Of a DNA stretch of 33,886 nt, positions 3,110 through 31,733 are shown piece by piece (the stretch's first letter is position 1; each line of letters begins with the position of its first letter). Origin of the DNA: Candidatus Polarisedimenticola svalbardensis (lineage in GTDB: Bacteria; Acidobacteriota; Polarisedimenticolia; Polarisedimenticolales; Polarisedimenticolaceae); contig JACXWD010000036.1 of NCBI GenBank assembly GCA_014764515.1, positions 1 through 33,886 of the forward strand, given 5' to 3'. The position numbers and the translations under genes are program-made. The notes beneath the pieces were generated by a model. The model did not search any database, had not been told where the DNA came from, and worked only from the letters and a program-made list of their open reading frames with translations.

Positions 3110-3874
3110 GTGAAGAAACTACTGGTCACCACCCTGGCTCTGTTTGTCCTGTGTACACCGTTCGCCCTGGCCGAGCCGACGGAAGTCGTGGTCCGGGTCC
3201 TCAGCAAGGATGCAAAGTTCGTCGGCACCTCCATGGGAGGGGTTCGGATCAATCTCCGGAATGTGGAAACCGGTGAACTGCTGGCCACAGGGTTGACAGC
3301 CGGCTCCACCGGCGACACTTCGAAGATCATGAAGTCGGACCGCAAGCGGAACGTGCCGATCAGCACCGACGGTTCAGCTGCATTCTCCGCCACGCTGGAC
3401 ATCGACCGGCCGGTACTGGTGGAAGCCCGGGCGTTCGGGCCCCTGGGTCAGCGCCAGGCGGCCAATACCGTATCGTCCACCATGTGGGTGGTCCCGGGCC
3501 GTCCGGTGACCGGCGGCGACGGGTGGGTGCTGCAACTGGCGGGATTCTCCGTCGACGTTCTGGCCCCGCCCAGCCACATCAAGCTGACAGGTGCTCCACA
3601 GGACGTTGAAGTACGAGCCAACGTCACCATGATGTGCGGCTGCCCCATCGAACCGGAAGGGCTCTGGGACGCAAACCGTTTTGAGGTCGCCATCCTCCTG
3701 GAGCGCAACGGCAAACCGGCAGGCACCATCCCGATGGAGTACGCCGGCAGTACCAGCCAGTTCCGGGGAACGGTTGCCGTCACCGAACCGGGGGCTTACC
3801 AGGTGACGGTTTTTGCCCATGATCCCGGGAACGGGAACACAGGATTGGACCGGACCACGTTCGTCGTCAAATAA
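3110..3874 (+). CDS. Secreted beta-rich protein of unknown function
   Basis: The 254-residue product starts at a GTG with AAAGGA eight bases upstream. Residues 1-21 form a classical signal peptide (KK, hydrophobic core, ending ALA), so the mature protein is exported. No catalytic motif is recognised. The first half (about 25-120) reads like a transthyretin/carboxypeptidase-regulatory beta-sandwich (VRINLRNVETGELLATGLT). The second half (about 150-254) contains MMCGCPIEPEGLWDANRFEVAILLERN and ends GAYQVTVFAHDPGNGNTGLDRTTFVV, suggesting another immunoglobulin-like sandwich. The Cys-Gly-Cys may form a disulfide or bind a metal. It lies 26 bases after pepQ and could be co-transcribed. Function unknown. 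Confidence 0.7.
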   Translation: MKKLLVTTLALFVLCTPFALAEPTEVVVRVLSKDAKFVGTSMGGVRINLRNVETGELLATGLTAGSTGDTSKIMKSDRKRNVPISTDGSAAFSATLDIDRPVLVEARAFGPLGQRQAANTVSSTMWVVPGRPVTGGDGWVLQLAGFSVDVLAPPSHIKLTGAPQDVEVRANVTMMCGCPIEPEGLWDANRFEVAILLERNGKPAGTIPMEYAGSTSQFRGTVAVTEPGAYQVTVFAHDPGNGNTGLDRTTFVVK

Positions 3875-4056: not shown

Positions 4057-4683
4057 ATGATTCGCCATCAGCGGCCGGCCCTGATTCTGTTCACCGCCCT
4101 GATCCTGCCAGCAATGGTGATCTTCGGGTGCGGCGGGAGCAACAGCACGCCTACCAGCTCCCCGGCCTGTATGACGTTTGTCCCTGCCCAGGCGCCGGCA
4201 GCCGGATTTGTGGCTCCGGAAGTCGACGCCAGTTCTACATGCGACATCCTGGTGCTCAACATGATGGTTACCGACGTCAACGACCTGTTCGGCGGCGGCG
4301 CCCTGCTTTCGTTTCCCACCAACCTCATGACTTACACCGGCATCAGTTCGGCCGGGTCCACGCTGGCTCAAAACGGCGTCGCAGTAGAGGTGGCCGGTGA
4401 CCGGGCCTGTCCCGATGCCAGTGGCAACTGGTGCCGGCCCCTGGGCCAGTTTTTCGGAGAGGTCACCATCGGCATCAGCCGCTTCTCCGGAGTCGCGCCC
4501 GGTGTGAATGTAGGGGCTGCGCCGGAGCGCCTGCTGCGCCTGACCTTTACCAAGGGGACCGGAGAGGGCACCACGATCCTCAGCTTCCCGTCGGATACCA
4601 ACCTGTTCAACAGCAATATTCCGCCGAACAACATTATCCAGCCGGCACCGGTATGGATCGGCGGCACCGTAACCGTGAATTGA
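4057..4683 (+). CDS. Lipoprotein with a cohesin-like domain
   Basis: The 208-residue product begins with a signal sequence ending VIFGC, so Cys25 is the probable lipidation site, although Phe at -2 is unusual. It is followed by a polar Gly/Ser linker. Residues about 45-208 read like a type I cohesin fold: LVLNMMVTDVNDLFGGGALLSFP, then LMTYTGIS, FFGEVTIGISRFSG, and RLLRLTFTKGTGEGTTILSF. This is the usual cohesin order: interface strand, bulk-surface strand, then LxLTF followed by GxGxT. The ATG at 4057 has GGAG seven bases upstream; the in-frame TTG at 4045 lies on that site. The next gene, 50 bases on, encodes a dockerin-like C-terminus, which supports a cohesin role. The protein is probably an outer-membrane anchor for the partner. 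The assignment is by pattern, not alignment. Confidence 0.6.
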   Translation: MIRHQRPALILFTALILPAMVIFGCGGSNSTPTSSPACMTFVPAQAPAAGFVAPEVDASSTCDILVLNMMVTDVNDLFGGGALLSFPTNLMTYTGISSAGSTLAQNGVAVEVAGDRACPDASGNWCRPLGQFFGEVTIGISRFSGVAPGVNVGAAPERLLRLTFTKGTGEGTTILSFPSDTNLFNSNIPPNNIIQPAPVWIGGTVTVN

Positions 4684-4733
4684 CCCAAGTCCCGGAACGA
4701 CGATCCATGACACGTCAGGAGGAGAGACCCATC

Positions 4734-7385
4734 ATGAATCCGAAGCGCACAACATACTGCACCCTGCTCGCAGTGATCTTGTTGCTCTCGACGACCGCCT
4801 CGCTATCCTTCGAGGTTCCGTTCGAGGTGGCGAGCACTCTTCCCGAGACTCCCCTGGCACTGGGGGTTCGGATTGTAGATATCGACGGGGATGGGGACAA
4901 CGACATCGTCGCCATCGCCTACGATGAAGCGATCGGATCCCGAGACGCCCTGATGGTCAAGATGTTCGAGAGCAACGGTGCAACCCCGCCGAGTTACACG
5001 GTTCGGGCGGTATCGCCGGGCAACTTCAGCCTGACGCAAAGCGTATTCTGGCCCAAGGGGATCGAGGTCGCGGACATCAACGTCGATGGATCCCCCGATG
5101 TGATCTCCTGTTCCTGGGGCAAGGTATCGTGGCATGAAGCCAACGTCGTACCAGGCGCCATCACCACCTTCCTCAACCATGTGGTGTTCAGCGACAACGT
5201 CGGTATCGATGGAACCGATTTCCTCTCGGTAAGGGTCGCGGACATGAACGGTGACGGCCGCCTGGATCTGATCGCCGCCAACAACACGGCGGACGAGATC
5301 TGGGTGTTCATCAACGAGGAAGACGAGTCCGATCCCGAGGAAATCGTCTGGACCCAGATCGTCGCAGGCACCGGCGCCGGCGAACCGAACATGGTGGCTG
5401 CCGCCGACCTGAACATGGACGGCGCCGTCGACATCGTGGTCGCCGACACCGCAACCAACCGGCTGCTCTGGCTCGAGAACGACGGCGAGACCGCCCCGAC
5501 CTTCGCAGAAACCGAAATCGCCGCCGACGTCATGGGTATTCGCGCCGTTGACGTCATGGACCTGACTGCCGACGGCTACCCCGAGATCTTTTCCGCTTCA
5601 AGCGGCGACAACCGCGTAACCCTGTGGGGGAACGGCGGCGGCGCAGCTCCCGTGTTCACGCCCGCCGACCTGCCCCTGTCCATCGTTGCAGCTTCCATCG
5701 TCATCGTCAGCGATATCGACGGTGACGGCGACATGGATGTTGTGGCAGGCGGCAAGGAAGAAGCCGACCCGTTGATCAACGACCAGCTGACCTGGTTCGA
5801 CAACAACGGCACCATGCCCCTGTCATTCACCCCGTACACCATTTTCGGTTCCTGGCTCCCGATGCAGGGACTGGCAGCCGGCGACCTGGACGGTGACGGC
5901 GATATGGACATAGCCACCGCCAATGACGATGAAGACCTGGTCACCTGGTTCGAGAATCGCAAATGTTCCTCCGTCTTCCTGCTCAAGGACGTACCCTCCA
6001 CAGTGGCTTACGGCGCCAACGACGTGCATATTGCAGACCTGAACGGCGACGGGATCCCGGACGTGGTCTCCTCCGCGTTCTACAACGACCCGGACCCGGC
6101 GATTCCCCCCAGCCAGAGAAGAGACATCACCTGGTACATGAACGACGGCGAAGTCCTTCCTTATCTTGAAGAAGCCGCGACGCCGATCCAGGCCAACGCC
6201 CAGCGCGCCCAGTCGGTGTCCACAGGAGATTTCGACGGTGACGGCGATCTCGACGTGCTGGCCACATCGGAATCGGGCAACTGGATCCGCTGGTACGAAA
6301 ACAGCGGTTCCTCCAACCCGACCTTCGAAGCCCACACTGTAAGCGCCACCGCCTTCAGCGCCCGGGGCGCAGCTGCCGCCGATCTGGACGGCGACGGGGA
6401 TGTGGACGTCGTGGCCGCATCCAGCGCCGAGAACAAGGTCGCCTGGTACGAGAACAGCGGAGGACCGTCACCGGAGTTCACCGAACACCTGATTACCCGG
6501 GCGGCCCTGGGGGCCTGGTCGGTATTCGCAGGCGATCTGGACGGGGACGGCGACATCGACATAGCCTCCTCCTCCCTCAACGACGGCCAAACCGCCTGGT
6601 ACATGAACGACGGCGCCAACCCGCCGGTGTTCATTCCCCAGGTTATCGAGGATCTCCGCGACCTGTTCCGCACCAACGGGCCGCTCAGCATTTTCGGAGC
6701 CGACGCCGACGGCGACAACGACATGGACCTGTTCGTTGCCTCGGTTTACGATGACGGCATCGTCTGGTGGGAGAACACGCCCGCCCTTACACCAGGAGGG
6801 GCGACCATCGAATTCACGACCCTGAACGTCATCGCCATCGACCCGTTCTTCTGGATGGGGGAGGTCAACGCAGGCGGTGATATCACGGACGGATCCAACT
6901 CCGTATTCGTAACCGATGTGGACGGTGACGGTGACGTCGACGTCGTCAACGCTTCGGCCCTGAGCCACCTGGTCTCCTGGTGGGAAAACGATGGACTCCC
7001 CGAACCGACATTCCATGCCCACGTTGTCGACATCAATTTCGGCAGCCGCGCCGCCATCGCCCACGATATGAACGGAGACGGACTGGCGGAGATCGTTTCC
7101 GCCTCGGCGCTGGGCAACACCATCCAGATTTACCTGAACACCGTCGGGGATCTGTGCATCGACTTCGACGCCAGCCTGGACGGCACCATCGACTCCCAGG
7201 AGCTGTCCAGGATCGGCCGGGCATTCGGTCTCATCCGGGACGACGAAACGCCTGAGGATGTCTGGTGGAAGACCATCGACTACGACGACAACGGCGTGGT
7301 GGACGGTGTCGACCTGGCGATCCTGAGCAGCACAGGCGTCTGGGGCCGTTCGGTTCTGGACTGTTCCTACACCTGCGACGAGTAA
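4734..7385 (+). CDS. Secreted FG-GAP/VCBS repeat protein with C-terminal dockerin-like domain
   Basis: The 883-residue product has a signal peptide (NPKRTTYCTLLAVILLL...SLS). It contains 14 regularly spaced calcium motifs of the type DxDGDGDxDI/V, from DIDGDGDNDIVA to DMNGDGLAEIVS. Many are followed by a W-(F/Y)-E/D-N turn, as in WFENR and WYENSGG. Fourteen repeats fit two seven-bladed FG-GAP propellers. The last 80 residues hold two dockerin F-hand-like loops, DASLDGTIDSQELSRIGRAFG (read as one loop plus helix) and DYDDNGVVDGVDLAIL. The start at 4734 has AGGAGGAG upstream at 4717-4724; the ATG at 4707 is in frame but precedes that site. It lies 50 bases after the cohesin-like lipoprotein gene and is closed by a terminator. 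The likely role is a surface or extracellular scaffold that binds calcium; the ligand is unknown. Confidence 0.8.
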   Translation: MNPKRTTYCTLLAVILLLSTTASLSFEVPFEVASTLPETPLALGVRIVDIDGDGDNDIVAIAYDEAIGSRDALMVKMFESNGATPPSYTVRAVSPGNFSLTQSVFWPKGIEVADINVDGSPDVISCSWGKVSWHEANVVPGAITTFLNHVVFSDNVGIDGTDFLSVRVADMNGDGRLDLIAANNTADEIWVFINEEDESDPEEIVWTQIVAGTGAGEPNMVAAADLNMDGAVDIVVADTATNRLLWLENDGETAPTFAETEIAADVMGIRAVDVMDLTADGYPEIFSASSGDNRVTLWGNGGGAAPVFTPADLPLSIVAASIVIVSDIDGDGDMDVVAGGKEEADPLINDQLTWFDNNGTMPLSFTPYTIFGSWLPMQGLAAGDLDGDGDMDIATANDDEDLVTWFENRKCSSVFLLKDVPSTVAYGANDVHIADLNGDGIPDVVSSAFYNDPDPAIPPSQRRDITWYMNDGEVLPYLEEAATPIQANAQRAQSVSTGDFDGDGDLDVLATSESGNWIRWYENSGSSNPTFEAHTVSATAFSARGAAAADLDGDGDVDVVAASSAENKVAWYENSGGPSPEFTEHLITRAALGAWSVFAGDLDGDGDIDIASSSLNDGQTAWYMNDGANPPVFIPQVIEDLRDLFRTNGPLSIFGADADGDNDMDLFVASVYDDGIVWWENTPALTPGGATIEFTTLNVIAIDPFFWMGEVNAGGDITDGSNSVFVTDVDGDGDVDVVNASALSHLVSWWENDGLPEPTFHAHVVDINFGSRAAIAHDMNGDGLAEIVSASALGNTIQIYLNTVGDLCIDFDASLDGTIDSQELSRIGRAFGLIRDDETPEDVWWKTIDYDDNGVVDGVDLAILSSTGVWGRSVLDCSYTCDE

Positions 7386-26526: not shown

Positions 26527-27711
26527 GTGAACGATCCTGGACAGTCGGCCAAAGGCCTCGGCTTCTTCGAACGATACCTGACCCTGTGGGTGTTCCTGTG
26601 CATCATCATCGGCTGCGTCATGGGGGCCCAGGCGCCGGGAGTGGCCAAGTACCTGGACGGGCTGACCTTGAACGTCGGCGACGCCCCGGTGGTGTCGATC
26701 CCCATCGCCGTCTGCCTGTTCTTCATGATGTACCCGATCATGGTGAAGATCGATTTCACCGAGGTGCTCAGGGCCGGCAAAAACGTCAAGCCGGTGGGGC
26801 TGACCCTGGTGGTGAACTGGCTGATCAAGCCGTTCACCATGTACGGCATCGCACTGCTGTTCCTGGGCTACCTGTTCCAAGGACTGATCGGACCGGAAGC
26901 GACTGACCTGGTAAGGCTCCCCCTGGGGGTCGATCTGCTGCCTGGCGCCGAGTACGGCTCCGGCACCGTCGTCCTCCAGGATGGCATCCGGATGCTGGAG
27001 GTGCCTCTCTGGAGATCGTACCTGGCCGGCTGCATCCTGCTGGGGATCGCTCCGTGCACTGCGATGGTCCTGGTGTGGGGGTTCCTGGCCAAAGGGAACG
27101 ACGGCCACACCCTGGTGATGGTGGCGATCAACTCCCTGGTGATGCTGTTCCTGTACGGCCCCCTGGGCGGTTTCCTGCTGGGGGTCGGCCGTCTGCCGGT
27201 GCCGTGGGAGGCGCTGCTGCTCTCCATCGGGATCTACGTGGCGCTGCCGTTGGTGGCCGGGTTCATTACACGGAAGCTGCTGCTGAAGACCAAGGGCGAA
27301 GCCTGGTTCAACGACAAGTTCCTCCATGTCCTGACGCCGATCACAATCACCGCCCTGCTGTTGACCCTGATCCTGTTGTTCTCGTTCAAGGGTGAAGTGA
27401 TCCTGAACAACCCGTTGACGATCCTCTGGATCGCCATCCCGCTGTTCATCCAGACCGTCCTGATCTTCGGCCTGACCTGGTACGCGGCCAAGGCCCTCAA
27501 GCTCCCGTATGAAGACGCCGCCCCTTCCGCCATGATCGGCGCCTCGAACCATTTCGAGGTGGCCATCGCCACGGCGGTGATGCTGTTCGGGCTCAGCTCA
27601 GGGGCAGCTCTGGCTACCGTGGTCGGCGTCCTGATCGAGGTCCCGGTGATGCTGATGCTGGTGAAATGGTGTTTGCGGGGAAGGGCGATGTCACAAGGAT
27701 CCTTGAGCTAA
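26527..27711 (+). CDS. acr3: Acr3-family arsenite efflux permease
   Basis: The 394-residue membrane protein belongs to the Acr3 family, which exports arsenite (and in some members antimonite) with the proton gradient. About ten hydrophobic segments are visible. Key signatures are [21 protein letters not shown], and [16 protein letters not shown] with the conserved essential Cys177. A C-terminal block [18 protein letters not shown] is also typical. Start GTG 26527 has AAGGAGG five bases upstream. No arsR or arsC is nearby, so its arsenic context is incomplete. Its last codons overlap the convergent FG-GAP gene by four bases. The final 55 bases are repeated, in diverged form, at 31834-31974. 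Confidence 0.93.
27625..27680 (+). repeat. 3' segment of acr3 with a diverged copy at 31834-31950
   Basis: The segment from GGCGTCCTGATCGAGG to GTGTTTGCGGGG, encoding [19 protein letters not shown], recurs about 4.2 kb away. The other copy has several synonymous changes and an expanded CTG-GTG/CTG-ATG tract. The two copies are in the same direction and bracket the FG-GAP gene. Confidence 0.85.
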
Positions 27712-30700
27712 GGACATGATCGTCCGGTCCTGGGAACCCCATCAGATGAATTGCCCAGGCTTCCTGGACCACACCCGTTTCTCGCTCTCGACAGATAGAA
27801 AACCACAATGCCTGCCGGGGGATCCGTCGGATCAGCAGCAACCGGTGACGTCACGTTCTGGTTGATACAGATCGCTGCGGATTCGAAATTGCCCGCCTCG
27901 CCGGAACGAAGTGTGTCGTAGGTCACGGCCGAAGGCAGCGACCCCGGGAATGGGGGCGGATCGTAGGTGATCCAGACTTTCGTATCGTCGAATTGCAAAT
28001 TGACCGTCTCACCGGGCACTCCCCAAAGCCCTGGATTGCTTTCATCACAGTCCAGCGTTTCATCGAATCCGTCCCCGTCCATATCCTGAGGGTTCCCTGG
28101 TTTCAGGGTTCGGATGACGGACTCGTACTGCCCCACACCGGTCAGTCGGCGCCAGGGGCCATGCGGGAACAAAGGAGTTTCGGTTGCAACGCGCAAGCGC
28201 CAATGGAACGAACTGTCGGAGGCCAACGGGCCTGTGTTCTCCGCCAGAGCCACAACGCTGCCGGTGGTCCCCGGGGGGCCGGAATCCGCTACCAAGCCCC
28301 CCCGCTGAATGCCCAATCCGGAATAAACCTCTCCAGGCAGCCTGAGTTCCCACTCAAGAAGGACCGGCTGCCTGCCTGATGCACTGAAGCCGTCGGCTCT
28401 AAGTTGAAACGAGTCTACGGAATCGGAGCGCCCCCAGGGAAGAACGGCAGATCCGTCTCCAAGCCGACCCTGGAATACGAGCCGGGTGCGGCCCGCATCT
28501 CCACCACCGTGGAACAGCCATGCTGCACCGACATCGGTAGTGAACAGATTGATGTCATAGCGCGAAGCGCCCACCATAAGGTCCGGGTAGCCGTCGGCAT
28601 TGACGTCCATACTGCCGGCGATTTCGTTTTCAGCGCCCAGAAAACTCCAGTGTTCTCCATAGAATACCCAGGCCGATTCCGGAGAGGGGCCGGATTCCGA
28701 TCCGAGATGGAGGGTGACCTGTCCCGCCCTCTCGACGAGATATGGATTGTAGTAGTCAATAAAAGGCGTCCCCACAGCAATGTCATCGTATCCGTCCCGG
28801 TTGATGTCTCCAGCGGAAGCGACCGAGGACCCCAACTGATCGCTACTCCACACCCCGACGAGAATCCAGGCAGGATTCTCCGCCAATCCATCCGGGGTTC
28901 CGAAGTAAAGGAATGCTGCGCCCTGGTCAAACTGCCCTTCGTCGTACCTGGGCGCGCCAATGATTACGTCGCCGTATCCGTCGCCGTTGACGTCACCGGC
29001 CGCTGCCAGGGCTTCTCCGAAACTCGTGCCAAAAGGTTCCACGCCGATATTCGACTCGGCGGTCCAGGCCGACGTTTGTGACAGGCCTGCGGGAGAGCCC
29101 AGGTAGAGATAGACCTTACCCTCTCTGAAGTTGCCGTTCTCGTACCAGGGCGCGGCCACCAGAACGTCTGCAAAACCATCTGCATTGACATCCCCGGCCG
29201 ACGATACCGTCCGTCCATAGACGCTGCCGGGCTGTTCCGATTCGACCATCCACGCAGGCGAAGAGTTCAACCCTCCTGCGCTTCCCAGGAACACGTACGC
29301 GCGCCCAAGACCGTTCCCAAGATTGCCGAGGTGCTCCTCCCCGACAATCACATCGGCAAAACCGTCACCGTTGACATCACCTGCCCCGGCCACTGAACTG
29401 CCGAACTCTCCTTTCGTCAGCGTGCCCACGACCATCCAGTCCGGTGTACCTCCCGGACCTGTCGGCGAGCCAAGGTACAACTGGACCCGGCCGACATCCT
29501 CCCTCGCCGTGTCGTGCCCTGGATCGCCAATCACAATATCGGAGAATCCGTCGCCATTGACGTCACCAGCGCCTGCATGCTCGTTGTAGAGAGCCAGGCC
29601 TGCAACTGTCCACAAAGGAGAAGGAGCAAGACCCTCTGTCGACCCGGGATATAGACGGACTTCACCTCTCTTGCCGATGAGCACATCATCAAAGCCGTCA
29701 CCGTTCGCGTCTCCGGCATGTGCAACCTTACCGAGTGACCCTCCACTCGAAGCACCGATCACACTCCAGTCGGCCGTATTATCAATTCCATACGGCGAAC
29801 CGAAATACACCTGCACCGAGCCTTCATGAGCGTTTATATCCCCGTAACCGGGAGAGCCGACAGCCACATCGCTCAGACCATCCCCGTTGACGTCTCCTGC
29901 CGTCCCAACCGAGTTACCGAACTTCCCCCCGCTCTGCGCACCCTTCTGATTCAAGGCCGGCGACAGGGCGAGCCCATCCGGTGTGCCTTCATAGACCCAT
30001 ATGGCCCCGGCATCTTCTCCCGCAACAGCGACATACGACGGTGTGCCGACAATCACATCGGCGTATCCGTCGCCTCCTACATCTCCTGCGGTAGCCACCG
30101 AAGAGCCGAACCTGGCTCCGATCTTGTCGCCGTAGAGAATCCGGGTGGCCGCTGTGGGAGGGCCGGATGCCGAACCGGGAAAGATAAATGCCGCCCCCTC
30201 TTCTGCCTGACCGTCCGTTATGCCAGGTCCACCAACAAGCAGATCGGCATAGCCATCGCCGTCAATATCACCGCCACCAGCTACAGAGGCACCCATTTCC
30301 GCGCCTGCCTGACCACCGAACACCTCCCACACCGGATCCGCGCCCAGACCAGCGCTCCCTCCCAGAAACAGAACAACCCTGCCTTCACCGGAGTACGTCG
30401 ATGTTGCACCTGGAGCACCCAGGACAACGTCATCGAAGCCGTCGCCATTGACATCCAGTGCAGTGGATACCGCCGTCCCAAGTTGTTCACCTGGCTGAAC
30501 CCCGATGATGGTTCGATGGGGACCAGGTTCGATGCCGGCGGGACGGCCACGGTGCACGCTTACTCTACCGATATCCGCGGCTCCTCCATCGTAGCCCGGC
30601 TCGGCAATGAGAACGTCCGCGAAACCATCTCGATCGACATCTCCCGCCCAGCTCACAGCCGCTCCCAGCCGCGCACCGGCCTCGGTGCCGGTCCATTCAT

Positions 30701-31733
30701 GGTCCGCCGTGCTAGAAGGGCCTTCGGGACCTCCGCGATAGAGGAATGCGCGTCCGGCGCCGTTCAGACCGCCCGGTGCCCCTACAAGGATATCGTCGTA
30801 CCCGTCACCGTCGACATCGCCGGCGGAGGCCACCGAAAAGCCATACTCGCTTCCGGCTTCCACCGGATTGCTGATCCAGACTGGAGTCGATGAGAGGCCA
30901 TCGGGACCTCCCGGATACAGCTCGGCACGCCCGGAGTCGACAAAGCTGCCATCGTACGAAGGGGAGCCGACGAGCAGGTCGCTGAAACCATCTCCGTTGA
31001 CGTCACCTGCCGTTGCCACGCTGAACCCCAGTTTCATCCCATCCTGCTCTCCACGCATTCCCCAGGTGGGAGAAGAAACGAGGGGATCAATGACAACCGG
31101 ATAGGTCGCATCGGAGTCGTCGACTTCAATGACAAGCAGCCGCCTGTCGATCCTCATCCTCGCCGGCAGCTCTTTGCCGGACGCATCCTGAGCCGACAGC
31201 CCTGTGTACAGCAGAACAGGGGTTCCGTCCGGCCGGGAGAAGGTAACTCCTGAACCGCCCTCGTGCATTCGGGCGAGCAGATTGCCGGACAAGTCGAGTT
31301 CGATCCACAGGGAAACATCACCCATGCCCGGCAGTGGTTTACTGGGTACTGTAAAGCCGTGATCGATTCCACCGGGAAGCAGAAGCATCCACTCCAGGAT
31401 GTCACCGCGATCGTATTGCACCTGATCGTCCAGTACGAGCGGGTTGCAAGGCCCGATCGATGACCCTGAATTCCCACGACCGTACCGGGTAGCAGTGACG
31501 CCCCATTCCCAGGCCAATCCCGGACTTTCATTCGGCACGACACGGAGACCTTTGCGCGTGAACTGCCCTGTCCAGTCGCGATCGGGATGGGACGCCAGCC
31601 AGATTGCGTCCGAGTCGGACGGTTCCGAAGCCGGAGACGGTTTCAGTTTCCAACCGAATCTATCGGAGGCCGCCGCTCCGGTCAGCAGACAAAAGCATAG
31701 CGGCACCACTACCCAAAAGCGCTTTGCGCTCAT
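27708..31733 (-). CDS. Giant exported FG-GAP (integrin-alpha-like) repeat protein
   Basis: The 1341-residue product has a signal peptide ([20 protein letters not shown]). An N-terminal domain (about 25-225) ends [16 protein letters not shown], a link often seen before such repeats. Fourteen FG-GAP repeats follow, each with a calcium loop such as [34 protein letters not shown] and [17 protein letters not shown]. This is enough for two seven-bladed propellers. Near the C-terminus [17 protein letters not shown] adds another calcium loop. The last 100 residues form the module shared with the 180-residue protein: YDTLRSG, a central Cys, [30 protein letters not shown] promoter and AAGGGGG site fit the ATG at 31733. 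It lies between acr3 and a decayed acr3 end. Probable calcium-stabilised surface adhesin or scaffold; ligand unknown. Confidence 0.85.

Follow-up and report, generated by a model that had tools for sequence, protein, structure and literature searches.

A candidate two-gene cassette for tethering dockerin-tailed secreted proteins to single-cohesin lipoproteins in Candidatus Polarisedimenticola svalbardensis

Cohesin–dockerin systems and the present locus

Cohesins and dockerins form a plug-and-socket module known from the cellulose-degrading machines termed cellulosomes. In archaea, including ANME archaea, non-cellulosomal cohesin- and dockerin-containing proteins have been described, and the authors of the ANME study propose that functional proteins are attached to the outer cell layer (PMC9012536). 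These archaeal systems rely on S-layer anchoring or on multi-cohesin scaffoldins and have ABC binding proteins among their passengers (PMC9012536). For freshwater Planctomycetes, a “planctosome” has been proposed, i.e., a non-cellulosomal cohesin–dockerin complex tethered to the outer membrane (PMC6461901). It is anchored through a 2,210-aa lamin-tail protein, an adaptor carries both domains, and peptidases serve as dockerin partners; the portions of that report considered here describe neither a small lipoprotein anchor nor repeated gene pairs (PMC6461901).

The locus reported here lies in the window (the whole stretch of DNA that was analyzed, 33,886 nucleotides in length) and consists of a gene for a lipoprotein with a single cohesin domain followed, after a gap of 50 bases on the same strand, by a gene for a secreted FG-GAP repeat protein ending in a dockerin-like tail. 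It resembles the cell-surface anchoring scaffoldins of cellulosomes in that a membrane-side cohesin would receive a dockerin-bearing protein, but the anchor is a lipid here and an SLH domain or a sortase-attached segment there, and the genome contains no multi-cohesin scaffoldin, its cohesins being single-cohesin lipoproteins plus one secretin. In contrast to cellulosomes, no carbohydrate-binding module was found in the dockerin proteins, and, as the initial annotation had stated for the locus, no glycoside hydrolase was found among the window proteins or among the dockerin proteins of the genome scanned with Pfam. With neither a scaffoldin nor a glycoside hydrolase among the dockerin proteins, a cellulosome was rejected. 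The archaeal systems share with this locus the cohesin fold, the dockerin partners, and the lack of cellulose degradation, whereas here a bacterial lipoprotein carries one cohesin, and its gene and that of the passenger make up the cassette; the planctosome shares the non-cellulosomal character, peptidases among the dockerin partners, and, as proposed there and predicted here, an outer-membrane tether. In the literature covered, which does not extend to the main survey of such modules (Peer 2009), two-gene cassettes with single-cohesin lipoproteins are not described for Acidobacteriota, although a prior mention is possible.

The lipoprotein and its cohesin domain

The first gene of the pair has the following features, its cohesin domain being assigned by family homology and by an AlphaFold2 (AF2) model.

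4057 to 4683, + strand: gene for the lipoprotein with a single cohesin domain, 208 aa (ATG at 4057, stop at 4683)
Residues 1 to 24, + strand: predicted lipoprotein signal peptide, followed by the putative lipid-carrying Cys25 (codon 4129 to 4131)
CGGSNSTPTSS, + strand: short Gly/Ser/Thr linker preceding the folded domain
4162 to 4680, + strand: cohesin domain, about residues 36 to 208

Read by eye, the signal peptide closes with IFGC (lipobox IFGC-GG); the counterpart in the genus-mate G001 has ISGC, and many relatives have ACGGG. The lipobox Cys is present and an Asp at position +2 is absent, which, by a sorting rule that derives from Escherichia coli and is the sole basis for the membrane assignment, suggests sorting to the outer membrane. 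Docking might alternatively take place inside the envelope, with the lipoprotein facing the periplasm and the passenger held at the inner side of a membrane instead of at the surface. Facing the periplasm is the default for lipoproteins, no surface-export signal was identified in this one, and its sequence gives no proof of surface exposure. Against this placement, large passengers bearing FG-GAP, beta-helix, Fn3, or TSP3 parts, as well as metalloproteases, are typical of extracellular proteins, and we regard docking at the inner side as rather unlikely, if still deserving of attention.

The window lipoprotein matched no Pfam family, the cohesin model (PF00963) included, so the cohesin profile search proposed at the outset failed for the protein itself and succeeded for most of its relatives. 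A genome-wide search with the Pfam cohesin model returned three matches elsewhere, namely, one lipoprotein each on contigs C80 and C33 and, on contig C38, a secretin. The two lipoproteins exceed the Pfam cut-off, and the window lipoprotein aligns with them over nearly its full length (BLASTP E = 7e-6 and 1e-5). Within the lipoprotein family, 24 of 34 members match PF00963 individually, and a profile of the family matches cohesins of the PDB with E = 7e-8. The AF2 model, computed from the window sequence and an alignment of related lipoproteins, has a mean pLDDT of 83.2, a pTM of 0.75, and 116 residues at or above 90. In a Foldseek comparison with the PDB, all 50 matches listed are cohesins, and the top match among these is 2xdh, a non-cellulosomal cohesin of Archaeoglobus fulgidus. 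Homology to Pfam-positive lipoproteins, the family profile, and the predicted fold thus make a firm case for a cohesin domain in the lipoprotein despite the Pfam miss, and the cohesin-like fold that had been read behind the lipidation site is borne out by the model, the cohesin-only PDB matches listed, and the homologues.

The FG-GAP protein and its dockerin-like tail

The second gene begins within reach of a ribosome-binding site located in the intergenic gap.

4717 to 4724, + strand: ribosome-binding site AGGAGGAG of the FG-GAP gene
4734 to 7385, + strand: gene for a secreted, beta-propeller-like FG-GAP repeat protein (by Pfam) with a C-terminal dockerin (ATG at 4734, stop at 7385)
7137 to 7382, + strand: dockerin-like tail of the window (WW) type, with the Cys-containing extension VLDCSYTCDE
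7167 to 7202, + strand: first calcium-loop motif DASLDGTIDSQE, 12 residues, from the sequence
7278 to 7313, + strand: second calcium-loop motif DYDDNGVVDGVD, 12 residues, from the sequence

The protein matches Pfam FG-GAP repeats with E = 5e-80, including 15 FG-GAP_3 stretches; its signal peptide lacks a lipobox, and it has no anchor of its own. Adhesion or ligand binding is a common role of FG-GAP propellers. A second large FG-GAP protein with a signal peptide is encoded in the window (27708 to 31733, − strand; 1,341 aa); it is without a dockerin tail, and its C terminus is a different Cys-containing domain.

The tail comprises 80 aa with two calcium-loop motifs. A short helix-like stretch comes after each 12-residue loop, which makes up a duplicated F-hand, and this is common to the tails of the three cohesin-neighbor proteins of the genome (window, C80, and C33). 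In the WW type, a WW motif separates the two F-hands, and cysteines are present at the end. As a whole, the FG-GAP protein has no dockerin match in Pfam, and the tail alone scores 14.6 bits against Dockerin_1 (PF00404), below the Pfam threshold of 22.9; the tail of C80 exceeds that cut-off. Compared profile to profile (hhalign), the window type and the remaining dockerins of the set match with E = 2e-17, and 17 of those 24 remaining dockerins match Dockerin_1 individually. A search of the PDB with the profile of the other dockerins ranks dockerins first, whereas the window-type profile ranks calmodulins first. Since the tail is weak alone, yet its type profile matches bona fide dockerins, we classify it as a divergent dockerin, dockerin-like and not a standard Pfam member. 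The two dockerin-like F-hands of the initial annotation were accordingly recovered, both as loops and through the hhalign match; of the dockerin profile search that it proposed, the type profile succeeded and the single tail fell short.

A different reading of these scores is that the tail with its F-hands serves as a calcium-binding structural cap, that the lipoprotein binds a polysaccharide or another protein, and that the two genes are neighbors only through operon copying. The weak match of the window tail to Dockerin_1 is about equaled by its matches to EF-hand models, which, together with the calmodulins found first by its profile, favors a cap; the profile match to bona fide dockerins speaks against it, as do the persistence of the pairing through a complete change of passenger and the co-variation of the two domains beyond passenger relatedness (both below). 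On balance, a cap beside a lipoprotein with another ligand seems improbable to us.

Gene pairing, passenger exchange, and tethering

Profile searches of the genome, seeded with the three lipoproteins and the three tails (these three seeds being found by construction), returned exactly three cohesin lipoproteins, plus the secretin, and exactly four dockerins, that is, three besides the one in the window, which supplies the count of other dockerin proteins that had been called for. All three cohesin lipoproteins adjoin a dockerin gene on the same strand, against a chance expectation of 0.013 pairs. The fourth dockerin, of the WW type, is on a metalloprotease at C54 and has no cohesin gene beside it; this orphan protein (L019:4171-5907) contains HEAT repeats, a metalloprotease-like HEYGHNTGLGH motif, and a MopE motif, and its dockerin may share the socket of the window. 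Directly upstream of the window's cohesin gene, the gene at 3110 to 3874 (+ strand) encodes a secreted protein of 254 aa in which no Pfam family exceeds the cut-off; none of the other pairs fetched has a homologue of it alongside, and on that basis the gene was rejected as a cassette member.

The secretin (PF00263; L003 / G000:C38:125173-128451), a type II-like outer-membrane gate with a C-terminal cohesin-like domain, raises the further option that this domain reads the dockerin as a tag for export, with the lipoprotein as an accessory. Besides having the domain, the secretin adjoins pilin-like proteins with N-methylation motifs. It is, however, unlinked to dockerin genes, whereas every cohesin lipoprotein of the genome is linked, and long-frame cohesin matches of similar size that resemble it (Pfam-checked in its own genome only) occur in many relatives, several of them without a detected dockerin, leaving the export tag a very improbable reading.

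The comparison set comprised 149 genomes of the phylum Acidobacteriota, the present genome included, of which 62 have cohesin-like matches and 55 have dockerin matches. Within this set, 42 cohesin matches have E < 1e-10; for 34 of them, a dockerin lies on the same strand at a distance of up to 4 kb, where about 0.006 such pairs would be expected by chance. The dockerin gene usually comes first and ends 0 to 140 bases upstream of the lipoprotein gene, with several ATGA-type overlaps; the order is reversed (cohesin first) in the window and in G001. The cohesin partners of these pairs carry lipoboxes. About two thirds of the dockerins found have no adjoining cohesin match, which we count against tethering, and around three unpaired cohesin lipoproteins the nearby same-direction open reading frames show no F-hand pattern.

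Two loci of genome G005 depart from the common arrangement. On C241 (L056:1-2581), the roles are swapped: the dockerin is on an 87-aa secreted protein with little else in it, and the partner is large, lacks a lipobox, and combines cohesin, lipase-like (LCAT), and TSP3 parts. On C87 (L084:3514-8379), a single 1,622-aa protein contains FG-GAP repeats and Ig-like parts, with a dockerin and, immediately after it, a cohesin-like domain, possibly a natural dockerin–cohesin fusion.

What the dockerins are attached to varies widely, and the same paired arrangement is common to unrelated passengers across the class. FG-GAP repeats are the passenger in the window and on C212 of G005. The C80-type passenger is, by eye, a right-handed beta-helix (DUF1565/Beta_helix by Pfam in G009), and the C33-type passenger is Fn3, as read on the G001 counterpart (L053), the dockerin gene of C33 being partly masked as N (L021, about 5960 to 6070) and its passenger incompletely readable. 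Further passengers are Kelch, PQQ/BNR, or sortilin-like propeller repeats, a GDSL lipase, and metalloprotease/MopE/HEAT parts; a glycoside hydrolase was not found among any of these passengers. Even a single dockerin type changes its passenger, the WW type bearing FG-GAP repeats at some loci and metalloprotease parts at others.

Distances among the cohesins and among the dockerins of 39 adjacent pairs are correlated (Mantel r = 0.61). Shuffling partners within genomes reduced the correlation to 0.31 +/- 0.08, and 0 of 2,000 shuffles reached 0.61; the correlation exceeds genome relatedness, which is compatible with cognate partners. When passenger distance is controlled for in the 12 pairs with an Fn3 passenger, a small sample, a partial correlation of 0.48 (p = 0.0006) is left. 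The raw distance correlation owes a part to the cassette being copied as a unit, and such copying could also produce it.

A structural model of both domains was obtained for the C33 pair, which, with its genes in frame across the stops, can be read through as one chain of dockerin, linker, and cohesin; the genes of the window are in different frames. The AF2 fold used five paired and 38 unpaired rows, and the linker includes the signal peptide. Individual domains are predicted well (pLDDT about 97 for the cohesin and about 83 to 92 for the dockerin), but the pTM of the chain, at 0.56, is near the value for the cohesin alone (about 145 of 287 residues), and the relative placement of the domains is without a confident interface. 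With another pair than that of the window, few paired rows, and a linker that includes a signal peptide, this is a weak and indirect version of the complex prediction that the initial annotation had proposed; it neither confirms nor refutes docking, and we list it against tethering and on the side of a calcium-binding cap.

Cohesin fold, dockerin homology, gene pairing, passenger exchange, and domain co-variation together point to the lipoprotein and FG-GAP genes as a tethering cassette of two genes, the cohesin of one product holding the other product, a secreted passenger with a dockerin tail, a reading to which we assign a probability of roughly 0.75. The lipoprotein would be exported, lipidated on Cys25, and anchored in an envelope membrane, most likely the outer membrane, with its single cohesin domain as the socket. 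The FG-GAP protein would be exported as a soluble protein, its C-terminal calcium-binding dockerin would plug into that socket, and the propeller would thereby be held on the cell envelope instead of being lost. The same cassette occurs with other passengers at C80 (beta-helix) and C33 (Fn3) and across the class. Binding, its calcium dependence, the membrane and its side, and the function of the passenger are features that we infer. The non-cellulosomal docking of the initial annotation is thus upheld in its components (a cohesin, a dockerin, a recurring pairing with unrelated passengers, and no glycoside hydrolase), with physical docking and placement on the outer membrane standing as predictions.

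Reports of non-cellulosomal cohesin–dockerin modules go back years, for the most part with no clear function or partner assigned. The gene pairing names a likely partner at each locus, gives a lipoprotein anchor, and reveals an exchangeable passenger, such that the role of non-cellulosomal cohesins becomes directly testable through the pairs; were the pairs mutually specific, they would also provide orthogonal protein plugs from a new source. More tentatively, and with the odds somewhat against it, each type of cohesin lipoprotein may recognize its own dockerin type, together making up a set of addressable surface sockets. If so, passengers would be exchanged while plug and socket stay together, and a Gram-negative cell would keep several different secreted proteins, each on a lipid anchor of its own, free of cross-talk.
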